Assembly: GCA_029547805.1 (NCBI GenBank) | Contig: JAKPOP010000003.1 | Coordinates: 434,001-498,000, forward strand | DNA length: 64,000 nucleotides | Direction of reading: 5' to 3' | From: Deltaproteobacteria bacterium | GTDB lineage: Bacteria; Myxococcota_A; UBA9042; DTJE01 | Notes under the pieces: generated by a model | Database searches by the model: none | What the model was told of the DNA's origin: nothing | What the model saw: only the letters and a program-made list of their open reading frames with translations | Part shown: positions 3,124 to 61,400 of the stretch, piece by piece | How positions within the stretch are numbered: the first letter of the stretch is position 1 | Layout: every line of letters starts with the position of its first letter | Program-made: the position numbers and the translations under genes

Positions 3124-4284
3124 TCAGGGGTGATAGAGGCCGTAGTGGATCCGGGCGGCGGCCCGGACGGCCGCGTTCTGGTAGTCCGTCGGCCGGACCT
3201 CGACATGATAGAGGATGCCGTTGTCGCCGGGCTCGTTCTTGGCCCCTTCGTTCACGTAGGCATACCAGAAGGTGTAGCCCTGGCCGTTCTCCTCGGGATG
3301 GAAGATGCTGACCGGCGAGGGGATCAACTGGAAGGGGAACCAGCCCCACCCGGTGCCGAAGGTCACGTCCACCGGCGGCGTCAGGTTGCTGCGGGCCTTG
3401 TCGTCGTCGGCGAATCGCAGTTCCAGCAGCATCTGGGCATGGCGCATCTTGTCGGCGTCCCACTCGCCGGAACAATCGGAGGTGCTGAGGTCGAAGGCCT
3501 CCCCGCCGGGGGCCACGACGCCGACGGCCTGGATCGTGTTCCAGTCGCCGGAGGTCGGGTCGCCGCAACTCCGGGAACCCGACAGACCGCCGCTCAGCGG
3601 AAAGTCGGGGGTCTCGTACTTCACCAGGCCCATCGTCGGGTGCATCCAGACGGTCCCCCGGACCTTCATGCCCTTCACGGCATCCAGGATCCAGTGGCCC
3701 TCCCCTTCCGTCAGGACCGCCTCGCCCTCATAGACCTCGACGCCGGCCACGGTGCCCAGTCGCGTCTCCACCACGGCGTCGGTGCTGGTCTTGGTCCAGG
3801 TCACGGTTCCCGCGGCGCGGATCTCCGGCTGGCCGACGATCTGGACCGTTCCCGAGACCGGAGTCGTCTGGGTCTGGCCCACCGGCACCGTGTCCGGATC
3901 GATGGCGATGGGGGTGTCCAGCGTGACCACGTAGTCCTTGTGCCGGGTGTCCCCCGGGGGATAGACCACGTCGCCACCGGCGACCACGATGCGTCGCCCC
4001 TCGGAGGCGACGCCGAAGACGTGGGCCACCTTGGTCCCCTCGGGCTTCGGGTAGGTGATCTCGTACTTCTCCCAGGTCTGTCCGTTGAAGTCGGTCTCGC
4101 CGACGAACCGGACCTGGGCCGTCACCTCCCCTCCGTCGGTCACCTGCACCTGGTAGGTCGCCTGGGTGTCCCGCCCCGGGGGGTCCAGGGGCCTCTTCAC
4201 GTCCTCGGAGGACCCCCCGCAGGCCGCAGCGAGGGCTGCCAATGACAGGGACAGGAACGAGAGACGGAAACGGATGGTCTTCAT
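3124..4284 (-). CDS. Lipoprotein of unknown function
   Basis: A 386-residue protein with a clear lipoprotein signal: MKTIRFRLSFLSLSLAALAAAC, the Cys being residue 22, then a Gly/Ser tether. The rest is predicted beta-rich without a family I recognise. It contains conserved-looking Cys in 'SRSCGDPTSGDW' and 'DCSGEW', and a Trp/Phe-rich segment near the C terminus ('GTGWGWFPFQLIP', 'GYTFWYAYV'). The ATG has a GGAGG site 11 nt upstream, and a good promoter lies at 4314-4342. The gene sits upstream of the secreted peptidase on the same strand (67-bp gap), so they may be co-transcribed. Confidence 0.65.
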   Translation of the reverse strand: MKTIRFRLSFLSLSLAALAAACGGSSEDVKRPLDPPGRDTQATYQVQVTDGGEVTAQVRFVGETDFNGQTWEKYEITYPKPEGTKVAHVFGVASEGRRIVVAGGDVVYPPGDTRHKDYVVTLDTPIAIDPDTVPVGQTQTTPVSGTVQIVGQPEIRAAGTVTWTKTSTDAVVETRLGTVAGVEVYEGEAVLTEGEGHWILDAVKGMKVRGTVWMHPTMGLVKYETPDFPLSGGLSGSRSCGDPTSGDWNTIQAVGVVAPGGEAFDLSTSDCSGEWDADKMRHAQMLLELRFADDDKARSNLTPPVDVTFGTGWGWFPFQLIPSPVSIFHPEENGQGYTFWYAYVNEGAKNEPGDNGILYHVEVRPTDYQNAAVRAAARIHYGLYHP

Positions 4285-4313
4285 GCGCCTCGTGCCTCCA
4301 GATGGACGGGCTG

Positions 4314-4342
4314 ATCCTAGCACCCGGAAGGGGGGCGGACAA
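4314..4342 (-). promoter_or_regulatory. Sigma-70-type promoter for the 4284 lipoprotein gene
   Basis: On the minus strand TTGTCC (4337-4342) is separated by 17 bp from TAGGAT (4314-4319). The -10 is preceded by TGC, giving the extended form TGCTAGGAT. The expected transcript start leaves a leader of about 20 nt containing the GGAGG site. Confidence 0.5.
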
Positions 4343-4412
4343 CCGAAGGGCGCCGGTCGGCCCAGGTCCTGGGAGTGACCGGCGACGCCTTCCCGGACCG
4401 GGTCCCGCGGCA

Positions 4413-4418
4413 TACAAT
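4413..4418 (+). promoter_or_regulatory. Possible -10 element upstream of the DMT transporter
   Basis: TACAAT matches the consensus at five of six bases in an otherwise GC-only stretch. There is no convincing -35; TTCCCG lies 17 bp upstream. The implied start near 4425 favours a translation start downstream of 4436. Confidence 0.35.
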
Positions 4419-4459
4419 CCGCTCCCCCGGGGTCCGTGGGCCGCACCGTCGGAGGCGCC

Positions 4460-5368
4460 TTGCGCGAACACGTGGGCGAGATGGCCGCCATCGCGACGGC
4501 GATCTGCTGGACCGTGTCGGCGGTCTCGTTCCAGGCGGCCTCGACCCGCCTCGGGTCGATGGTGGTCAACTGGGTCCGTCTCGTGATGGGCCTGTGCTTC
4601 CTGACCCTGCTGGGGCTGGTCCTCCACGGGAGCCTGCTGCCCTCGGCGCCGCCGGAGGCCTGGGCCTTCCTGGGAATGTCGGGGGTCATCGGCTTCGTGG
4701 TGGGGGACCTGGCCCTCTTCCGGGCCTTCGTGCTGGTCGGCGCCCGGGTGTCGATGCTGGTCATGTGCCTGGCCCCGCCGATGACGGCGGCGCTGGGCTG
4801 GGCCTTCCTGGGGGAGCACCTGTCCCTGGGCCAGGCGGCGGGCATGGCGCTGACGGTCGGGGGCGTGGCCTGGACCGTGCTGGAACGGCCACCGAACCGG
4901 GACGGGACCCCGACCGATCGGGCACCACCCCGACACCGGATCGCCGGCCTGCTGCTGGCGGGGATCGGGGCCCTGGGGCAGGCCGGGGGCCTGATCTTCA
5001 GCAAGATGGGCATGGCGTCCTTCCCGGACCCCTTCGGGGCGACCCAGATCCGGGTGCTGGCCGGGATCGGGGGCTTCTCGTCCCTCTTCTTCGCGGCCCG
5101 GTGGTGGGGCCACGTCGCCGCCACCCGGCGACAACCCCGGGCCCTGGGCATCACCCTGCTGGGGTCCTTCTTCGGGCCCTTCCTGGGGGTGTCCCTGTCG
5201 CTGCTGGCGGTCCATCGCACCGAGGCGGGAGTCGCCTCGGCGTTGATGTCCATCGTGCCGGTCCTGCTGATCCCGGTGTCGATGGTGGTGTTCCGGGAGC
5301 GGGTCTCCCCCCGGTCGGCCCTGGGCACGGTGGTGGCCGTCGCCGGGGTCGTGGTGCTGTTCCGGTAG
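4460..5368 (+). CDS. DMT/EamA-family membrane transporter
   Basis: About 302 residues with ten predicted membrane helices arranged as two EamA repeats of roughly 140 residues. The repeats are joined by a short charged linker (around 'RDGTPTDRAPPRHR'). The 'PPMTAALGWAFLGEHLS' and 'VPVLLIPVSMVVFRERVS' segments at the ends of the repeats are the usual EamA signatures. The family exports or imports small metabolites such as amino acids, nucleosides or sugars; the substrate cannot be predicted. I chose TTG 4460 because GGAGG (4451-4455) sits just before it and a -10-like TACAAT at 4413 would leave too short a leader for the alternative GTG at 4436; GTG 4472 and ATG 4481 are also possible. Confidence 0.85.
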   Translation: MREHVGEMAAIATAICWTVSAVSFQAASTRLGSMVVNWVRLVMGLCFLTLLGLVLHGSLLPSAPPEAWAFLGMSGVIGFVVGDLALFRAFVLVGARVSMLVMCLAPPMTAALGWAFLGEHLSLGQAAGMALTVGGVAWTVLERPPNRDGTPTDRAPPRHRIAGLLLAGIGALGQAGGLIFSKMGMASFPDPFGATQIRVLAGIGGFSSLFFAARWWGHVAATRRQPRALGITLLGSFFGPFLGVSLSLLAVHRTEAGVASALMSIVPVLLIPVSMVVFRERVSPRSALGTVVAVAGVVVLFR

Positions 5369-38633: not shown

Positions 38634-40301
38634 ATGGACTTCCTGGGATTGCACGGCGTCGCAGCGGCCATCCTGACCCTGGCCCTCGTGGTGAGCCTCG
38701 GCCTGGCCCTGGGCCATGTCCGGGTGGCCGGGGTCAGCCTGGGCGTCGGCGGCGTCCTCTTCGTCGGCCTGGCCTTCGGGCACCTGGGACTGGGCCTCCG
38801 GCCGGACCTGCTGGACTTTGTCCGGGACTTCGGACTGATCCTCTTCGTCTATGCCATCGGGATGCAGGTCGGCCACGGGTTCCTGGGAAACCTGCGGAAG
38901 GACGGACTGCGGATGAACTTCCTGGCGGCCGCGGTGGTGCTGCTGGGAACGAGCATTGCGATGTTGCTGGCCTTCCTGGGGGTGCTGGAAGTCCCGGTGG
39001 CCGTGGGACTCCTGTCGGGGGCCGTCACCAATACGCCGAGTCTTGGCGCGGCCCAGCAGGCCCTCTCGGGCCTCCCCTCGGTGCCCCGGGAGGCCTCCCA
39101 GTGGACGGGCATGGCCTACGCCGTGGCCTACCCCTTCGGCATCGTCGGGATCATCGGCACGCTGCTGGTCCTGCGGCGACTCTTCCGGGTGGACGTGAAG
39201 CGGGAGGTGGACCGGTTCCGGCGGGCCCGGAGCGGCGGCGCCGAACCCCTGGTGACCCGGAACATCGAGATCACGAATCCCAACCTGGGGGGACGGACGG
39301 TCAACGAGGCCCTGGAACTGGCCGGCGGAGGGCTCACGGCGAGCCGCCTCTTTCGGGAGGGAACCCAGGAACTGGCGGTTCACGACGCTCCCCTCAAGAC
39401 GGGGGACGTGATCCACGTCATCGGGACCGCCGATCGGGTCGATCGCTTCCGGACCATCGCGGGTCGCTACAGCGACCTGGACCTCCCGCGCCTCCCCAGC
39501 GCCATCTTCATCCGGCGGGTCGTGGTGACCCGAACCTCCATCGTGGACCGCACGCTGGAGGACCTGGCCCTCGAGGACCGCTACGGAGTCATCGTCACCC
39601 GGGTCATCCGGTCCGGCCTCGAGTTCACCCCGCCGCCGGGGCTCCGGATCCAGTTCGGGGACCGCCTCCTGCTGGTCGGGACCGAGGCCACCACCGCCCA
39701 GGCCGCCCGGGAACTGGGGGACTCGGTCCAGAGCCTCGACCGGCCCCACATCATCCCGGTCTTCTTCGGCATCGCCCTGGGAGTCCTCGTCGGCAGCATT
39801 CCCCTGTCCCTGCCGGGCGTCCCGGCCCCGGTGCGCCTGGGCCTGGCCGGCGGCCCCCTGCTGGTGGCCATCGCCCTGTCGCGCTTCGGCCGCATCGGCC
39901 CCTTCCTGTCCTACGTCCCCAATCCGGCCAAGAAGTTGCTCGCGGACCTTGGCATCGCGCTGTTCCTGGGCTGCGTCGGACTCCGGTCGGGGGAGCGGTT
40001 CTGGGAGGTGCTGAGCAGCGGCCAGGGATGGGCCTGGATGGGATGGGGGGCCCTGATCACCCTGGTTCCCATCGTGGTGGTGGGGGTGGCGTCCCGGGCC
40101 CTGTGGGGCCTGGACTTCGTGTCCCTCTGCGGGCTCCTCTCCGGGAGCATGACCGATCCCCCCGCGCTGGCCTACGCGACGGACCTCGTGGGGGACGACA
40201 GCGCCTCGATGGCCTACGCGACGGTCTATCCGATGACGATGCTGCTCCGGGTCCTGCTGGCCCAGGTCATGGTGCTGGTCTTCCTGGGGGGCCACGGCTA
40301 G
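38634..40301 (+). CDS. AspT/YidE-type duplicated permease with two RCK_C domains
   Basis: A 555-residue protein. Two membrane halves of five to six helices flank a cytoplasmic region holding two TrkA-C-like (RCK_C) domains (~205-285 and ~295-375). The duplicated family motif is plain: 'GAVTNTPSLGAAQQAL' in the first half and 'GSMTDPPALAYATDLV' in the second. Relatives include the aspartate:alanine exchanger AspT and Escherichia coli YidE/YbjL; the substrate is unknown. Its TAG stop overlaps the TAG stop of the converging nitrogenase-like gene inside a 16-bp palindrome. Confidence 0.9.
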   Translation: MDFLGLHGVAAAILTLALVVSLGLALGHVRVAGVSLGVGGVLFVGLAFGHLGLGLRPDLLDFVRDFGLILFVYAIGMQVGHGFLGNLRKDGLRMNFLAAAVVLLGTSIAMLLAFLGVLEVPVAVGLLSGAVTNTPSLGAAQQALSGLPSVPREASQWTGMAYAVAYPFGIVGIIGTLLVLRRLFRVDVKREVDRFRRARSGGAEPLVTRNIEITNPNLGGRTVNEALELAGGGLTASRLFREGTQELAVHDAPLKTGDVIHVIGTADRVDRFRTIAGRYSDLDLPRLPSAIFIRRVVVTRTSIVDRTLEDLALEDRYGVIVTRVIRSGLEFTPPPGLRIQFGDRLLLVGTEATTAQAARELGDSVQSLDRPHIIPVFFGIALGVLVGSIPLSLPGVPAPVRLGLAGGPLLVAIALSRFGRIGPFLSYVPNPAKKLLADLGIALFLGCVGLRSGERFWEVLSSGQGWAWMGWGALITLVPIVVVGVASRALWGLDFVSLCGLLSGSMTDPPALAYATDLVGDDSASMAYATVYPMTMLLRVLLAQVMVLVFLGGHG

Positions 40302-40307
40302 CCGTGG
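40292..40307. terminator. 16-bp perfect palindrome shared by two stop codons
   Basis: CCACGGCTAGCCGTGG is self-complementary. The central CTAG supplies the TAG stop of both converging genes (40299-40301 on +, 40298-40300 on -), so the genes overlap tail to tail by four bases. As RNA it folds to a GC-rich stem on either strand and may end both transcripts. A terminator role is inferred. Confidence 0.5.
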
Positions 40308-41602
40308 AGGGAACAGGCGTCCACGAACCGCTGGACCAGCGCCACCGCGCCGTTGAATCCCAGGAAGGGCACCGGGTAGATCCAGTGCTGCCGGGTCGAG
40401 GGATACCCCAGTTCCACCACCGGAATCTTGTGCCGCAGAGGACCGGCCCAGGGGGAGGTGCCCACGACCAGATGCACCGGTCCTCCCCGGGACATCTCCC
40501 GCTCCAGGGCCCGGATGCCCCCGTCCCGGGAGGGAGCGACCAGCAACTCGGGCCGAAGCGTCCCCGGGGCCTCCAGTCGATCCAGGACCGCCTGGAAGGC
40601 CTCCGGGTCCGCGTCCTCCCCGTCCGTGAGGCCCACCAGGGGGACCTGGATGCCCAGTTCGGCCAGCCAGACGGCCACCGCGGCCGCCAGCCGGGTCGGC
40701 AGGAAGACCCCGGCCCGCCGGTCCGCGAGTCGGCGGGCCCCCTGGGCGGCCAGCGGGGCGGCCCGCTGGAGTTCCCTCTCGATGCAGGCCTCCACCCGCT
40801 CGGGAGGCACCCCGGCGGCCTGGCCCGCCTCCCGCAGGAAGGCCATCGTCCCGGCGAAGCCCAGGGGCAGGGAGACGTCGGCCACCTTCCGGCCCCCGGC
40901 TCTGCGATCCAGCGCGGCCCGGGCAAACCGCCCCTCCGGGAGCACGAGCCAGGTCCCGGCCCGGGCGATGCCCTGGAGGACGCCCATCCCCTCCCCCGAC
41001 AGCCACGTGGCGCCCATCCGGAGGCCGATGGCCCGCAGGAGGCGCCGCAGTTCGGCGAAGTTCGCCGGGTGCTCCATCTCGTAGCGGTCGAAGACATAGC
41101 CCACCAGGGCGGCCTCCTCGGGGTCGCCGTTCCCGTCGATGGGAAGGGTCTCGGCCAGGGCCGCCAGGACCCGTCCGTAGCCCCGGGCCACGCTCCCGAT
41201 GGTGCCCGGTGCCCGGACGAGAAGCACGTGGCACGGCAGGCGATTCCTCAGTTCCCGGACCGCCTGCTCCACGTCGAAGGCCGAGAGGTCCACCGCCGCG
41301 TTGGTGCTCACGACGAAGACCTCTGGGCGCCGCCGCTCGTACCAGGTGGTGGCGAACTGCAGCAGGCGTTCCCCGGACCCCTGGATCAGCCGGATGTCGT
41401 CCACGCCGGTCCAGAGGCGCTGGTTGTGGGATTCCTGGAACCAGTCGTGGGAGACCAGTTGCAACTGGGTCTTGAACTTGCATCCCACGGTGGTGTGCAG
41501 CAGCATGACCGCCCCGGGAATGGCGTGCACCGCCAGGAAGACCCCGAAGAGGTCCCCCGAGTCCACGTCTCTCAACTCGAAGGGTTCGATGGGGTCCCTC
41601 AC
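40298..41602 (-). CDS. Nitrogenase component 1-type protein, one-Cys subunit
   Basis: A 434-residue protein of the nitrogenase/DPOR component 1 superfamily. The first-domain pattern 'HAIPGAVMLLHTTVGCKFKT' matches the family's 'vHGp.GC', with Cys at residue 41. The positions equivalent to the other two cluster ligands are Ser15 and Asn101, at spacings (26 and 60) identical to those of the three Cys in its partner. 'DIRLIQGSGERLLQFATTWYERRRPEVFVVSTNAAVDL' follows the conserved second-strand layout. Later Rossmann-like repeats are visible ('PLVGLTDGEDADPEAFQAVL', 'PVVELGYPSTRQHW'). GTG 41602 overlaps the partner's stop (GTGA). The pair probably forms a heterodimer or heterotetramer; the substrate is unknown. 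Confidence 0.78.
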   Translation of the reverse strand: MRDPIEPFELRDVDSGDLFGVFLAVHAIPGAVMLLHTTVGCKFKTQLQLVSHDWFQESHNQRLWTGVDDIRLIQGSGERLLQFATTWYERRRPEVFVVSTNAAVDLSAFDVEQAVRELRNRLPCHVLLVRAPGTIGSVARGYGRVLAALAETLPIDGNGDPEEAALVGYVFDRYEMEHPANFAELRRLLRAIGLRMGATWLSGEGMGVLQGIARAGTWLVLPEGRFARAALDRRAGGRKVADVSLPLGFAGTMAFLREAGQAAGVPPERVEACIERELQRAAPLAAQGARRLADRRAGVFLPTRLAAAVAVWLAELGIQVPLVGLTDGEDADPEAFQAVLDRLEAPGTLRPELLVAPSRDGGIRALEREMSRGGPVHLVVGTSPWAGPLRHKIPVVELGYPSTRQHWIYPVPFLGFNGAVALVQRFVDACSLHG

Positions 41603-42972
41603 CGGCCTCCTCCCGCGTCGCCGCCCCTCCCCTGCCGGACGCCCTCCTCGGCCCGGAGGAAGCGGCCGTAGCGCTGCTGGAACACCGGCGCCCCTTCCGA
41701 GTGGAGCAGGCCCCAGGACCGGATGGCGCCCCACCAGCCCGGCTGCATGCTGCCGAACCGCACCATCGGGACCCCCGCCTCCCGGGCCTGTCCCTCCAGG
41801 AAATCCGGCAGGTAGGCCAGGTCGTAGCGCCCCTCCTCCAGCACCGGCCGCAACACCGCCGGTTCGTAGAAGAGGCGGTAGGGCAGGTCCACCCCCATGG
41901 TCTGGAGGTTGCGCTCGATCCGGCGGTGGACGTCCGGGCGATCCCGCTCCTGGATGACCAGTTCCACCCGAAAGCCCAGTTCCAGGAACAGCGGCAGGTC
42001 CGCCATCCCCTCCTGGGCCAGTTCGTCGGGGCGGAAGTTGTGGTGGGATCCGATGCCGTACGCCAGCGATTTCCCGGCCACGGCCTGGCGCACCTCGGGA
42101 AGGGCCTCCAGGGCCCGGCGCCGCTCCGGGTCCTCCTCGATGGCGGGTCCCGCGTCTCGGTCCATCGCCTGGCCCACCTGGCGCCAGAAGCGATCCGTCG
42201 CCGCCACCCCCATCGGGGAGGCCACCTCCAGGACCCGGTGACCGGGCCGGTCCAGGCGCTTCAGCATCTTCTGGAACAGCGCCCGGTCCGACACCACGGT
42301 GAGCGACCCCTGACCGATCCGGGTCCAGTCGTCCTCGGTGGCACCGACGGGCGCGCACCCCATCAGCCGCAGCCCCATCCGCTCCAGCACCCGGGCCGCC
42401 TCGGCCCGGAAGACCCGGGACTGGAGCCACCGGGACGGAGGCCGGTCGGTCCGGTATCCCACCAGGTTCACCCCCCCTGGGTCCATCTCCCCCGATGCCG
42501 GCAGCAGATCCATCACCGTCCGGGTGACCCAGTCGGAGACCTCGGCCTGGGTCCGCATCCGGAGCCCGCCGGTCCGCAGGCCCCGGATCGGGATGCCGGT
42601 CTCGGCCTCGACCTTGCGACAGGGGGCCTCCAGGTCGGCGCCGATGGTGTCCGCGAGGCAGGTGGAGATCACGACGATTCCCCTGGGCGCCCGTTCCCGG
42701 GCGATCACCCGGAGGGCCTCCTCGAGGCGCCCCTCGGCCCGCCCCTCCATCACCTCCCGCTCCCCCAGGGCCACCGTGAAGAGAGGCCAGGTCTCGAGGT
42801 CCGACACCGGCGGGGTCAGTCGCGGCATCGCCTGGGCGCACTCCCGCTCCCCGAAGACGACCAGGGCCAGGGAGGGGAAGGAACCGGCCATCTGGAACAG
42901 GAAGCCGGTCATCGCGCACCCCGGCTGGGCCAGTTCCCCGGCCTTGCGGGGAGGCGCGGAGGAATCCTTCAT
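41599..42972 (-). CDS. Nitrogenase component 1-type protein, three-Cys subunit
   Basis: A 457-residue protein. Cys19 ('QPGCAMTG'), Cys45 ('FGERECAQ') and Cys105 ('VVISTCLADTIGADLE') stand at spacings 26 and 60, close to the ligand spacing in BchN/ChlN and in nitrogenase subunits, and in the right motifs. 'VALGEREVMEGRAEGRLEEALRVI' matches the family helix after the second ligand. Further domains read 'VNLVGYRTDRPPSRW', 'VLEVASPMGVAATDRFWRQVG', and 'LPYRLFYEPAVLRPVLEEGRYDLAYLPDF'. It lacks the nitrogenase cofactor signatures I could look for. ATG 42972 follows GAGGAG. It lies 25 bp after a peptidoglycan hydrolase gene and at the end of a long gene run. No reductase (NifH/BchL type) is in the window. 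Confidence 0.8.
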   Translation of the reverse strand: MKDSSAPPRKAGELAQPGCAMTGFLFQMAGSFPSLALVVFGERECAQAMPRLTPPVSDLETWPLFTVALGEREVMEGRAEGRLEEALRVIARERAPRGIVVISTCLADTIGADLEAPCRKVEAETGIPIRGLRTGGLRMRTQAEVSDWVTRTVMDLLPASGEMDPGGVNLVGYRTDRPPSRWLQSRVFRAEAARVLERMGLRLMGCAPVGATEDDWTRIGQGSLTVVSDRALFQKMLKRLDRPGHRVLEVASPMGVAATDRFWRQVGQAMDRDAGPAIEEDPERRRALEALPEVRQAVAGKSLAYGIGSHHNFRPDELAQEGMADLPLFLELGFRVELVIQERDRPDVHRRIERNLQTMGVDLPYRLFYEPAVLRPVLEEGRYDLAYLPDFLEGQAREAGVPMVRFGSMQPGWWGAIRSWGLLHSEGAPVFQQRYGRFLRAEEGVRQGRGGDAGGGR

Positions 42973-42997: not shown

Positions 42998-45313
42998 TCA
43001 GGGCGTCTGCCACTCCCCGTCCCCGGCCATCGAGGACAGGTCATCGACCACCGCAGGCACTCCCTGCTGAATGCCCCCGGCACTCCCCTGCAGGCACCGG
43101 AGGATGTCCTCCAGGGGACGACCGCGGACCGCCGACCGCAGGTAGAGCCACCAGGCCAGGAAATTGACCGGATGGAAGTGGTTCAGGACCCCTTCCTGGC
43201 CCTGGGCGAACCGCAGCCCCAGGTGGCTTGCGACCCGGTCGTCGAGCCAGGTGAACTGGAGCCACCGGGAGGCCTCTCCGGTGAACCAGCGGCTCCAGGG
43301 GCGCACCTCGGACCCCGGGGACTCCTGCAGGACCCCCTCGGACCACGGTTGCTGTTCCAGAAGCGTCCGGGCCCAGTCCACCCAGACGGACCACTCGGAG
43401 ACGTGCCGGACGATGAGCCTCCGGAGGGAAAGCCGGTCCTCCTCGTCGGCGTTCTCGAAGAACGCCCGGATCCGCCGGGCCGAGAGGACCTTCCCGGTCA
43501 GGGGCGCCGGCCGGAGGTCGTCGTCGGCCCCCGGGGGGATCCGTTCCCGAGGATCCCATCCCAGTTGCCGCCACAGCCTCACATCCCGAACCGTCAGGTC
43601 CCGGGCGACGTCCTGGGGCCCCGGCACCAGGTAGCGCCCCGACAGCGACAGGTCCATCGCCTCGGCGTAACGGTCGTCGGCAAAGACCTCCAGGTGCAGC
43701 ACCCGAGGCGGGCTCTCCTCCCCGCCGAACACCCCGGCCTCCCCCAGGACGTCCTCGGGCCCCACCGACAGCCACCGGTCCGGGTCGTTCCAGGGAGAAA
43801 AGAGGGCGACCCACCCCTGCCGCAATGCCACCAGGGGATTCGGGAACTTCTTCGGGTCCGCGGCCTCCAGGCGGCTCCGGAGGACTGGCCGGGCGTCCTG
43901 GGGGTTCGGGTCCGCGGGATATCGGCTCAGGATCTTCTGCATCAGGGGCGTCGGCCGGCGCCAGTCCACCCCGTCCAGGTGCATGTAGAGGCTGAACACG
44001 ACCAGTTCGTTGGGCGGCGGAGGCGCCACCTCGCCCCCGCTGGTCTCGCCGCTCCGATCCCGATCCCGGGTCTCCGGACAGGGCGCCCGGGTCACCGAGG
44101 CCAGCCGGGGCGGCAAGGGGATGCGGTGCCGCAGCACCACGAAGTTGTTGCTCCCGAGGCCCGGGGGAAAGGCGTCGCTCCCGACCAGATGGGCCGCCAC
44201 CAGTTCCCCCTGGAGCATCGGCCGGACCGGCGTGCCGGGCGCACAGGGGACGTGGATGCCCCCGTGCCAGGTCTGGTTCACCCCCACCGGGAAGTAGCCC
44301 CCCTCGCCGAACATCTCGCAGGCCCGGGCGATCATCCGCAGGAAGAGGGCACCCCGGTCCTCGGTCTCCAGGGCCTTCGCCAGATGCACCCGGGCCGGCT
44401 CCCCCTCCTGCAGCACCCGGGCCCGGACCCACTGCCGCTCGGCCTCGCTCTTGGCCACCTGCGAGGGAGACGACACCGAGGGAAGGGCCGGGAAGGTCGC
44501 GTCCTCCTGCCGCAGGCCCGCCAGGATCCGCTGCCAGTCCAGGCCGGGTCCCGGGTCCCACTTCTGGACGTCCGAGTGCCAGTGGCACTGGATCCCGGAG
44601 AACTGGTCCGGCGGCGGGTCCACCAGCACCCGCCGCAGGATCCCGCCGTCCTGGTCCAGGGGGAACACCGGCTGGATCCCCAGTTCGTTCTTCAGGACCC
44701 GAAGCACGGCGATGAGCGCCCGGTACTGCTCGTCGGAATAGGTCCAGGACCGGAAGGTGCCTCCGTTGATCACCTCGTCCTTCGACGGCAGCCCTCCATA
44801 GGGGGCCGTTGCCTCGGGATTGCTCAGGAGGTTCACGGCGGTGTTGTTGAGGTCGAACCCGACGGTGACCGCGTTGAGGCCCGCGGCGTGCCAGGTCATG
44901 TCGGCGATGTCCGCCGCCTGGTACACGGTGCCGTCCCGGTCGATCTGGAAGTGAGAGGACAGCCCGCGCTGCTTGAGGGTCTCGAAGCAGATGCGGGCAC
45001 TGCCGGTGCCGTCATGGTGCAGCACCACCCCCCGGACCACCTTGCGAAGTGCCGCCAGGGCGTTTCCCGAGGGGTCCAGGTCCGCCCAGCCGGCGCCCTG
45101 GAGGCCCAGCACCTTCGGCGGGGCCCCGGCAGGTCGATTCCGGGGTCGCACCAGGGGGACCACGTCCCCGCTCTCATCGGTGGCCTGGAGCGGGGCCACC
45201 TGTCCCCCCAGGCCCTGGTAGAAGGAAAATCCACCCGGGTCCCGGAAGGTCACCACCTTCACCTGGGAGTCCGGCAACGGGAAGGCCTTCCCGGCGATGA
45301 TGATGTCGGCCAT
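42998..45313 (-). CDS. Fused PGRP-type amidase and LytM-like (M23) protein
   Basis: A 771-residue protein without a signal peptide. Residues ~95-260 are an amidase_2/PGRP domain: 'GVVLHHDGTGSARICFETLKQRGLSSHFQIDRDGTVYQ', 'MTWHAAGLNAVTVGFDLNN', and a third-ligand region 'GIQCHWHSDVQKWDPGPGLDW'. Residues ~345-450 resemble an M23/LytM fold ('TWHGGIHVPCAPGTPVRPMLQGELVAAHL ... NNFVVLRHR ... FSLYMHLDG'), but the His-x-x-x-Asp motif reads His-x-x-x-His, so its activity is uncertain. The last ~300 residues are unrecognised. It could be an effector or a wall-remodelling enzyme exported by a dedicated system. It is 12 bp after the VWA gene. Confidence 0.78.
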   Translation of the reverse strand: MADIIIAGKAFPLPDSQVKVVTFRDPGGFSFYQGLGGQVAPLQATDESGDVVPLVRPRNRPAGAPPKVLGLQGAGWADLDPSGNALAALRKVVRGVVLHHDGTGSARICFETLKQRGLSSHFQIDRDGTVYQAADIADMTWHAAGLNAVTVGFDLNNTAVNLLSNPEATAPYGGLPSKDEVINGGTFRSWTYSDEQYRALIAVLRVLKNELGIQPVFPLDQDGGILRRVLVDPPPDQFSGIQCHWHSDVQKWDPGPGLDWQRILAGLRQEDATFPALPSVSSPSQVAKSEAERQWVRARVLQEGEPARVHLAKALETEDRGALFLRMIARACEMFGEGGYFPVGVNQTWHGGIHVPCAPGTPVRPMLQGELVAAHLVGSDAFPPGLGSNNFVVLRHRIPLPPRLASVTRAPCPETRDRDRSGETSGGEVAPPPPNELVVFSLYMHLDGVDWRRPTPLMQKILSRYPADPNPQDARPVLRSRLEAADPKKFPNPLVALRQGWVALFSPWNDPDRWLSVGPEDVLGEAGVFGGEESPPRVLHLEVFADDRYAEAMDLSLSGRYLVPGPQDVARDLTVRDVRLWRQLGWDPRERIPPGADDDLRPAPLTGKVLSARRIRAFFENADEEDRLSLRRLIVRHVSEWSVWVDWARTLLEQQPWSEGVLQESPGSEVRPWSRWFTGEASRWLQFTWLDDRVASHLGLRFAQGQEGVLNHFHPVNFLAWWLYLRSAVRGRPLEDILRCLQGSAGGIQQGVPAVVDDLSSMAGDGEWQTP

Positions 45314-58417: not shown

Positions 58418-61400
58418 TCACCGGAGGAAGCCCACCAGATTCACCGAGAAGGCCTCCCGCCGATCCCAGGCCAGGTCCTGGGACCCGAAGGCCCCCATCC
58501 GGAAGCCCGGGGCCCGCACCGCCGTGAGATTCACCCGCAGCGAACCAGCCGGAAGGACCGGCTCCCCCAGCCATGACTCGAGGTCCGGGAGCCCGACCTC
58601 GGCCAATTCCCCGTCGGCGATGACCGACCAGACGGTCCACCCGGAGGCATTGCTGATCAGGGCCTGGAGGTACGAGGCGCCGCCGCCCGTCCCCGCCGAC
58701 AGCGGCGACCAGGCCAGACGGCGGGCGGTCCAGGGGGCCTGGGCGACCGGTTCCTGGATCCAGGGATACCCCAGAAAGCCTGGCAGGGGGAGGAACCGCC
58801 GCCCGGCCAGCAACACCCGTCCTGCGGTGGTCACACCGGCTCGAAGGTCCAGGTCCCTGCGCGGCACCACGACCTCCGTGAAAGACCGACCGTCCCACTG
58901 CAACACCCGTCCTGCCGCCCCGAACAGCCAGGCCCGGTCGGGTCCCACCATCACGGCTCCGGCCAGGTCCGGATTCCCCGGGGCCCGCAGGATGGTCACG
59001 TCCTCGGGTGCGATGCGTAGCAGGATCCCCCCGTCCCCCACTGCCAGACACGTCTCCCGGTCCAGGCAGTTCAGGCCCCGGAGGGTCTCGGTCACGGGCT
59101 GGTCGACCCCGAGGCCTCTGCCCGAGACCCCCCGAAAGACGATTCCCCCGTCTCCGACACCCAGGATCTCTCCACCGGGGAAGCGCCTCAGGGCCCGGAT
59201 GCCCCGGACCGAGGCCGGCAGGGGTTCCCCGACCCAGGCAGCCCCATCCCAGGACCACAGGGATGATCCTCCCCCGACCGAGACTCGGTCCCCCGACTCC
59301 CCCGCCACCGCCACCAGGTCGACCGCCAGGGGCACCTGAAGGTCCCGCACCCCGTCGGTCCGGAGGCGCCGGACCGTGCCCCGGGCCCCCACGAACCACA
59401 GGTCCCCGTCCGAGGCCGCGTGGACGCCCAGGAGCGGGCGGTCCACCCGCAGGGGCCCGGCCTGGAAGGCCACCCCGTCGAACTCCCAGGTGCCCCCCGA
59501 GGCATCGACCGCGATGGCCCTCCCGTCGGGAAGGGGGGCCATCGCGGTGATCTCGGCCAGGGGGGCTGCCACGACCGCCACGCCGCCCCCGGTGTCCTCG
59601 ACGAGCGCCAGGCCTCCGGCGTCCGGCGACGGAGGGGCGAAGGGGGCCACCCGTCGGGCCAGGGCGACGCTGTAAGGCATCCCGTTCGACCCGGTGCCCG
59701 GCGCCGGGGCGGCCGAGGTGGTGACGTAGAAGGCATAGCCCAGACCCCCGAAATCCCCCTCGAAGGACCGAGGCTGCCAGGGGAAGCGGATCCGGTCGCC
59801 CTGGCGCTGCTGCACGTTCAGCATCGGCAACCAGCCATCCTCCCCCAGTTCGTAGGAGGCGATCACGTAGGGAGGGTTCGACCCGTACGGCGCCTCGGGC
59901 AGGGCCCCGGTGGCCAGCACGAACTCCCCGTCGGTCTCCCGGTCCAGGGTCACCACGACCCCCTCGACCCGCCCTGAAGGGCCGCAGGACAGCCGCCGGA
60001 CCAGACCGTCCCGGAGCGTCAGCACTCCCCCGGCCACGGGGTCCGGCGCCAGGAGTCGGCACCAGAGGGCGAAGGTTCCCGACCGCCCGATGACCGAGAA
60101 GTGGCCTCGGGCGTCCGGGGTCCCGCCGGGTCCCGGGTCCGGCCCCCCGCCGTACTGGCTGGTACCGCTCACCTCGCAGCGCACGAAGGGCGTGGTCGTG
60201 AGCCAGGAGGGCTTCACCAGGTACTTCCCGTAGTCCCGGATGCGCCCCTCGACCACGCAGTCGGACCCGGAACCCCCGGTGGCCGGCGGGGGGTCCCCCG
60301 ACTCGGGGGAGCCGACGGGAGACACGTAGAGCGTCGCGTTCCGGCCATCGAAGCCGGCGTAGGTGGCCGCCGAGAACCCCGCCTTCGCCACCGTGAGCAC
60401 CTGGGGCCCCCGCAGGTCGGGGGAGGACAGCGTGACCTGTCCCCGGTCGTCGGTGACCCCGACCCCGCGCCCCTCGGCCCCCAGGAGGGCCAGGGCCCCA
60501 GGAAGTCGGGCCCCGTTGGCCCCGTTGAGCACGGTGACGTTGAGGTCCCCGCGGATGGGGCCTCCCCAGACGCCTCCGCCGGCCAGGCGAGGGTCGAAGT
60601 AGAGGAACGATGCAGGTCCCAGGGCGCCTCCCCCCTTCCCCAGGACCATCAGGGGAACGGGACCCGACTCGGCCGCCCGGGGGGCCCGGACCTCCAGCAG
60701 CCCCGAGTGGACCACCCGGAGCCCCGAGGCCTCGGCATTCCCGAAGAAGACCCGGGTCGTCCCCTCCAGGTTGGCCCCCTGGATGCGCACCCTCGTCCCG
60801 CCGGCCCAGGACCCCGAGTCCGGGTCCGCGTCCCAGAGGACCGGTCCCCCGGGCCAGTCATAGCGATACCCGTCCGGGAGCACCGCTGCCGCGTACCCCT
60901 GCCGGACCACCACGTCGGCGGGCCCGGGACTCCCGGGGGCGACGATGGCCCGGATCCGGTCCTCCCCCAGGACCTCCACCGATCGGGCCGGCAGGGCGCC
61001 GATGCGCACCGCGGCCCCGGGCCGGAACCCGGTTCCCCGAACCAGGACCACCGTGCCGCCCTCCCAGGGGCCATGGTCCGGGTCCGCCGCCAGCACCTGG
61101 AAGGAAGGGTGGCCTGGGAAGGTCTCCCGCTCCCGGTATTGAAAGCCATCGACCAGCCGCGCCCTCTCCGTCCCCCGGAGGACGGTCACCGTGGCCGGAC
61201 CAGGCTCCCCGGGGGGGGTCACGACCAGCAGAGTCCGGTCATCCACCGGCTGCTGTTCCGGGACTCGCCGTCCCCCGAAGAGGACATCCACCGGCTCCGA
61301 CAGGCCGGTCCCCCGGATCACGACCGGGGTGCCCCCCTCGCCGGGACCGGAATCGGGGTCGAGACCGACGATGCCCAGGGTTCCCCGATAGCGGAACCCC

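Follow-up and report, generated by a model that had tools for sequence, protein, structure and literature searches.

A 64,000-nucleotide stretch of the genome of a Deltaproteobacteria bacterium (GTDB Myxococcota_A; assembly GCA_029547805.1, contig JAKPOP010000003.1, positions 434,001 to 498,000; hereafter the window) carries two adjoining genes, A and B, which an earlier note made from the letters alone had described as a nitrogenase-like pair. We consider it likely that they encode component 1 of an ATP-driven, NifH-dependent nitrogenase-like reductase with one all-cysteine [4Fe-4S] cluster per subunit interface. The linkage and co-occurrence of the pair with a NifH-type gene in sister families argue for component 1 of a two-component reductase dependent on an Fe protein, making a real, ATP-driven enzyme very probable. 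It forms a new clade within a known kind of nitrogenase-like reductase, the ligand pattern itself being already known.

Gene pair and family membership

Both genes lie on the minus strand (window coordinates):

41599..42972, minus strand: gene A, D/E/N-type (alpha) component 1 subunit, 457 amino acids, ATG start at 42972
40298..41602, minus strand: gene B, K/N/B-type (beta) component 1 subunit, 434 amino acids, GTG start at 41602

The extent given to this coupled pair in the earlier note, 40298-42972, was exact. Upstream of the ATG of gene A at 42972 stands GAGAGGAG; its stop is at 41599, and the 4-bp overlap shared by the two genes makes them look translationally coupled. Both chains are nitrogenase component 1-type oxidoreductases, with the family fold and with matches to PF00148 (Pfam) of 115 bits for A and 135 bits for B over a cut-off of 28.6. 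Orthologues were drawn from the window's own family (f1), from families f12 and f3 of the same class, and from f23, elsewhere in the phylum. Neither gene is broken and both show purifying selection, with identities to own-family orthologues of 44-85% (A) and 48-87% (B) and ratios of nonsynonymous to synonymous substitution rates (dN/dS) against a same-genus orthologue of 0.25 and 0.19, respectively.

The NCBIfam equivalogs of the PF00148 superfamily were scored against both chains, each relative to its own cut-off, and none came near it for A or B. The top equivalog was BchN for A (47 bits versus a cut-off of 420) and the NifEN fusion model for B (45 versus 1229), and the pair reached 43 bits versus 505 for NifE, 38 versus 327 for NifN, 37 versus 425 for BchY and 21 versus 529 for BchZ. 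Among PDB sequences, the closest matches of gene A are NifE, and MarDK is found among the matches of the pair. AlphaFold single-chain models (predicted local distance difference test, pLDDT, 83.7 and predicted template modelling score, pTM, 0.83 for A; 82.6 and 0.85 for B) were compared with solved structures using VIA-align. As modelled, both chains fold as component 1, and the differences in Z, from 35.4 for BchB (3.5 Å over 400 residues), 34.7 for AnfK and 33.2 for NifN with B to 27.8 for NifD and 27.7 for NifE with A, are too small for assigning function.

Trees were built with FastTree on the full set and, with greater care, with IQ-TREE on 31 rows, which did not include MarDK, IsrDK or CfbD. 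In the latter, the Myxococcota D-type proteins all split from NifD, NifE, BchN and BchY (support 96/93), as do the K-type proteins from NifK, NifN, BchB and BchZ (100/99); in each tree a single branch, modestly supported (86/74 and 83/75), sets the pair and its f12, f23 and f3 orthologues apart. Grouping the pair with the Nif rows was rejected by the approximately unbiased test (p-AU 0.007 for A with NifD/E, 0.0003 for B with NifK/N), while grouping with the Bch rows was rejected for B (p-AU 0.001) but not for A (p-AU 0.11). Judged from these trees, the pair appears to form a conserved clade, separate from the Nif and Bch clades included. The suggestion of an uncharacterized nitrogenase-like pair is thereby borne out, both trees and the equivalog scores leaving it outside those clades. 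Placement in a known functional clade, which the earlier note had named as grounds for abandoning that suggestion, was rejected for Nif with both chains and for Bch with B, though not with A. We found no paper in the open literature describing the clade, and no relatives of the pair on viral contigs.

Predicted cluster ligands

Ligand columns were read from orthologues of A (24) and B (26), rows gapped at a column being left out of its count, and were aligned with reference proteins taken from annotated plasmids:

42916..42918, minus strand: codon of Cys19 of A, first ligand; Cys in 22/22 orthologues; aligns with the first Cys of NifE, NifD, BchN and BchY
42838..42840, minus strand: codon of Cys45 of A, second ligand; Cys in 23/23; aligns with the second Cys of NifE/BchN/BchY
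42658..42660, minus strand: codon of Cys105 of A, third ligand; Cys in 24/24; aligns with the third Cys of NifE/BchN/BchY
41480..41482, minus strand: codon of Cys41 of B, fourth ligand; Cys in 26/26; aligns with the Cys of NifN and BchZ and the Asp of BchB

Column conservation thus indicates that three ligands of A and one of B are kept while the remaining two P-cluster positions in B vary: position 15 (Ser15 in the window) is H/A/S/Y/L among orthologues and position 101 (Asn101) S/N/A/T/V, and neither is ever cysteine. The six positions had been located correctly in the earlier note, the four cysteines proving invariant and Ser15 and Asn101 not. Histidine at position 15 of B, present in 19/26 orthologues, was considered as a general ligand and rejected, the rest, the window included, having S, A, Y or L.

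The all-cysteine 3+1 pattern appears real but is not new, COR (chlorophyllide a oxidoreductase) and NifEN being exact precedents. In the alignment NifE/NifN and BchY/BchZ have four cysteine columns identical to those of A/B, and BchB has aspartate in the fourth. The O-cluster of NifEN takes three cysteines from its alpha and one from its beta subunit (PMC11168457), and DPOR (dark-operative protochlorophyllide reductase) uses three cysteines and one aspartate as ligands (PMC11423573). The likeness to DPOR with cysteine in place of aspartate, to which the earlier note drew attention, is a sound comparison, but not a sign of an unusual site. Nitrogenases (NifDK/VnfDK/AnfDK) have six P-cluster cysteines (3+3), where the pair has 3+1, and A is without their alpha-chain cysteine for the iron-molybdenum cofactor (FeMo-co). 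The FeMo-co/L-cluster cysteine column (NifD Cys287, NifE Cys249, NGR234 numbering) carries D/E in f1 but G in f12, and A has no cysteine upstream of Cys19. The pair thus seems to be devoid of a second, FeMo-co- or L-cluster-like metallocofactor site. Where BchB has Asp274, B has G/A.

Probable Fe protein partners

As the earlier note had stated, the 64-kb window contains no NifH-type gene, nor any PF00148 gene besides A and B. The absence of a reductase that this implied did not hold up at the scale of the genome, nor among relatives: the genome-wide search for NifH that the note had proposed returned three NifH-type genes on contigs C13 and C14, each next to a PF00148 pair other than A/B, and orthologous pairs in a sister family adjoin NifH. 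The genome has three PF00148 pairs besides A/B, on other contigs. Within the window's family, NifH directly adjoins none of the orthologous pairs, and no single NifH class was found in all genomes; at least one NifH is present in 9/10 of the genomes that bear the pair.

Family f12 is simpler in its composition. Nine genomes (G032, G033, G036, G040, G045, G048, G049, G050 and G051) have exactly two PF00148 genes, namely the pair, and in G047 one gene of the pair is reported as two PF00148 matches. A single NifH was found in 10/12 pair-bearing f12 genomes and in 0/7 of those without the pair or any such system. It adjoins the pair in six genomes, convergent with B in five (G032, G033, G036, G049 and G050) and following A and B on one strand (A-B-H) in G045, and lies on a separate contig in G040, G047 and G048; the G048 contig on which the pair begins runs out within B, leaving linkage there undecided. 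One of the two exceptions, G051, has a contig that stops within B, where H would come next. In the other, G043 (L156, G043:C250, approximately 3900-5250), gene A has an orthologue with a broken reading frame and no NifH was found; co-decay of the system and an assembly error are both possible. From f23, genome G179 combines one lone NifH with this pair only; G068, likewise with one lone NifH, holds two pairs of this kind and an additional PF00148 fragment.

Every complete NifH recovered has the P-loop and both cluster cysteines. Those of f12 form a clade of their own near true NifH (FastTree 1.0), and the lone f23 NifH take yet another position, with weak affinity to the C13 type. Since the NifH of f12, of the window's genome and of f23 fall in different places, the NifH partner seems replaceable. 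The linked reductase gene is gone from the window's family, and one of the three unlinked NifH is probably borrowed in trans.

Several points weigh against the pair being component 1 of a NifH-dependent reductase. The f12 clade includes none of the window genome's three NifH, and G009, at a completeness of 86%, has the pair but no NifH that we could find. The Fisher p of 0.0007 for the f12 comparison overstates independence, the f12 genomes being related, and the genomes are largely metagenome-assembled drafts (depositors labelled some of them Myxococcota, Myxococcales, Deltaproteobacteria, Anaeromyxobacter or Oligoflexales). Finally, we infer the convergence of the four cysteines at one site from the alignment with NifEN and BchYZ.

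Proposed mechanism and alternative roles

We propose that A and B would assemble as A2B2, with one [4Fe-4S] cluster predicted at each A/B interface, where the conserved Cys19, Cys45 and Cys105 of A and Cys41 of B would hold it. Electrons would be delivered by a NifH-type Fe protein, the gene for which lies beside the pair in f12; in the window's family, a NifH of one of the other operons probably serves instead. Because a second site of the FeMo-co or L-cluster kind appears to be lacking, electrons may pass from the interface cluster directly to a bound substrate, as in DPOR and COR. Elimination and architecture suggest that this substrate is probably an unsaturated organic compound.

The elimination draws on pathway markers. 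No NifB over cut-off and no BchH were found in 12 pair-bearing genomes, no nif genes accompany the pair, and the CfbB profile, which matches CbiA/CobB-type amidases in control genomes, has no match in the window's genome. Roles in nitrogenase, DPOR/COR or F430 synthesis are unlikely given the NifB, BchH and CfbB results, and the last two likewise make a chlorophyll or F430 intermediate an unlikely substrate. The BchH and CfbB negatives bear directly on the possibility that the pair is a tetrapyrrole reductase, a relative of DPOR, COR or CfbD whose substrate would be an intermediate of the porphyrin, chlorin or corphin kind. Such an enzyme would have the single-cluster architecture in common with the pair, BchB is structurally closest to B, and the grouping of A with BchN/BchY was not rejected; that of B with BchB/BchZ was, however, and the Gly/Ala of B at the Asp274 column of BchB joins the missing BchH and CfbB-profile matches in counting against this role, which we regard as unlikely. 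The substrate could nevertheless derive from haem, sirohaem or cobalamin.

The coexistence of three other H-D-K systems (NifH-, D- and K-type genes) in the window's genome raises the thought that the pair is a NifEN-like scaffold with an O-type cluster, assembling or carrying a metallocofactor for these paralogous enzymes. Its four-cysteine set equals that of NifE/NifN, and A finds its closest PDB sequences, and B its top NCBIfam models, in NifE and NifN/NifEN, respectively. Yet where the pair is the sole PF00148 pair, as in sister families, there is nothing to assemble for; the absence of NifB over cut-off from 12 genomes, the D/E/G of the cofactor-cysteine column, the lack of a cysteine before Cys19 and the rejection of both Nif groupings all speak against a scaffold, and we find it very improbable. 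Least credible to us is that, in the window's family, the pair has ceased to depend on an Fe protein and survives as a relic or as a moonlighting, ferredoxin-fed [4Fe-4S] protein. The loss of linked NifH throughout that family, and the want of a NifH class present in all its genomes, would be expected of such a protein, but intact genes under purifying selection, invariant ligands, the occurrence of NifH in nearly all own-family genomes with the pair and the retention of H with the pair in two families would not.

A NifH-dependent reductase thus remains our preferred interpretation of the pair. The clade lives in bacteria in which no marker of nitrogen fixation (NifB) or of chlorophyll synthesis (BchH) was found. 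Families with linked, unlinked and missing reductase genes constitute a natural control, in which Fe-protein swapping and substrate discovery are directly testable.

Genomic surroundings

The pair is flanked by:

42998..45313, minus strand: N-acetylmuramoyl-L-alanine amidase, upstream neighbour (PF01510, 59 bits)
38634..40301, plus strand: AspT/TrkA_C-type permease, convergent neighbour (PF06826, 264 bits)

Among relatives, G011 of the same genus alone keeps the amidase next to the pair, the others having different neighbours, and this gene is probably outside the system; the permease is not kept beside the pair outside the genus. Both were considered as parts of the system and rejected, as they are not conserved next to the pair. 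No neighbour of the pair is conserved past genus level, and the gene neighbourhood yielded no clue to the substrate. Elsewhere in the window, ARAGORN called a tRNA-like gene at 60986-61058 on the minus strand whose anticodon is undefined (cc); the call is probably false.

Paralogous systems

Paralogous H-D-K operons with radical SAM genes depart from the ligand set of the pair, their D chains keeping 2/3 of the cysteines and the cysteine of their K chain being shifted by one residue. Such operons occur at L015 (G000:C13:20001-40000, in the window's own genome), L063, L066 and L049, with a radical SAM protein of up to 980 amino acids, which in L015 has two Radical_SAM stretches. The D chain at these loci is N-terminally extended and without the first cluster cysteine, and the K chain cysteine comes one residue earlier (GPDC). 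Also in the window's genome, L013 (G000:C14:66001-86000) holds two back-to-back nitrogenase-like H-D-K operons, neighboured by NikR (PF08753, 115 bits), an ABC ATPase, a permease of the energy-coupling factor (ECF)/CbiQ type, a TonB receptor, a methyltransferase and a 721-amino-acid protein. The last, a candidate B12-type radical SAM protein, has no Pfam match. The context of L013 suggests a nickel-linked cofactor pathway.

A further 3+1 cysteine class, sister to the window's pair, was seen at L062 (G003:C44), L064 (G012:C4) and L171 (G026:C87), and consists of a K chain and an N-terminally extended D chain (extension of up to about 500 amino acids); a radical SAM-like gene adjoins the G003 copy. 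At L127 (G010:C148), L123 (G004:C62), L124 (G005:C265), L119 (G006:C409) and L114 (G012:C314), NifH is followed by a K-like protein with its N-terminal cluster region missing or unalignable, possibly a cluster-less component 1 chain. D-K-D trios with no adjoining NifH occur at L128 (G010:C45) and L131 (G009:C2). One relative, G012, carries up to 16 K-type nitrogenase-like matches, at 16 places; loci noted for this multiplication are L050, L052, L055, L064, L113-L117, L132 and L134-L140. Farther afield, a Subdoligranulum plasmid without gene annotation (L110, OY725846.1:312958-325686) carries a divergent NifH-like gene in which GRGGSGKS replaces GKGGIGKS.

This multiplication of component 1 genes is a lineage-specific and unusual radiation. 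We raise, tentatively, the possibility that the pair belongs, as a founding-type member, to a Myxococcota-specific radiation of nitrogenase-like reductases that share or exchange Fe proteins and reduce a series of new substrates, some within a nickel-linked cofactor pathway. The nickel-linked part of this proposal derives from the NikR, the ECF CbiQ transporter and the large possible radical SAM gene beside the paralogues.

Comparison with known systems

To our knowledge, reactions have been established for just a few nitrogenase-like enzymes (DPOR, COR, CfbCD, Mar, Isr and NifEN). The pair resembles those of Group IV (Mar, Isr, CfbCD; sequences outside our trees) in that these are non-diazotrophic, Fe-protein-dependent reductases. 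Isr also has a four-cysteine set, though an inverted one, with one in D and three in K (PMC11423573). Mar has P- and Fe8S9C-type clusters (PMC12552129). Both Isr and Mar are accompanied by a radical SAM gene, whereas none stands beside the window's pair or its f12 and f23 orthologues. CfbD is a homodimer, unlike the heterodimeric pair, and the window's genome is without a CfbB-profile match.

With NifEN, the maturase of FeMo-co, the pair has in common the 3 Cys plus 1 Cys set of a [4Fe-4S] O-cluster and the matches of A/B to NifE/NifN, but it lacks the L-cluster cysteine, NifB and nif genes, and belongs to a separate clade. DPOR (BchLNB) offers a single interface [4Fe-4S] cluster, an Fe protein and, in BchB, the nearest structure to B; it differs in its aspartate as fourth ligand, where B has cysteine, in the Asp274 column, which is Gly/Ala in B, and in the chlorophyll pathway that the pair's genomes lack. 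COR (BchXYZ) is set apart from the pair by the lack of BchH in the pair's genomes, by scores far under the BchY/BchZ cut-offs and by the rejected grouping of B; it is nonetheless like the pair in joining an Fe protein to a heterodimeric component 1, with three cysteine columns in BchY, one in BchZ and no cofactor cysteine.

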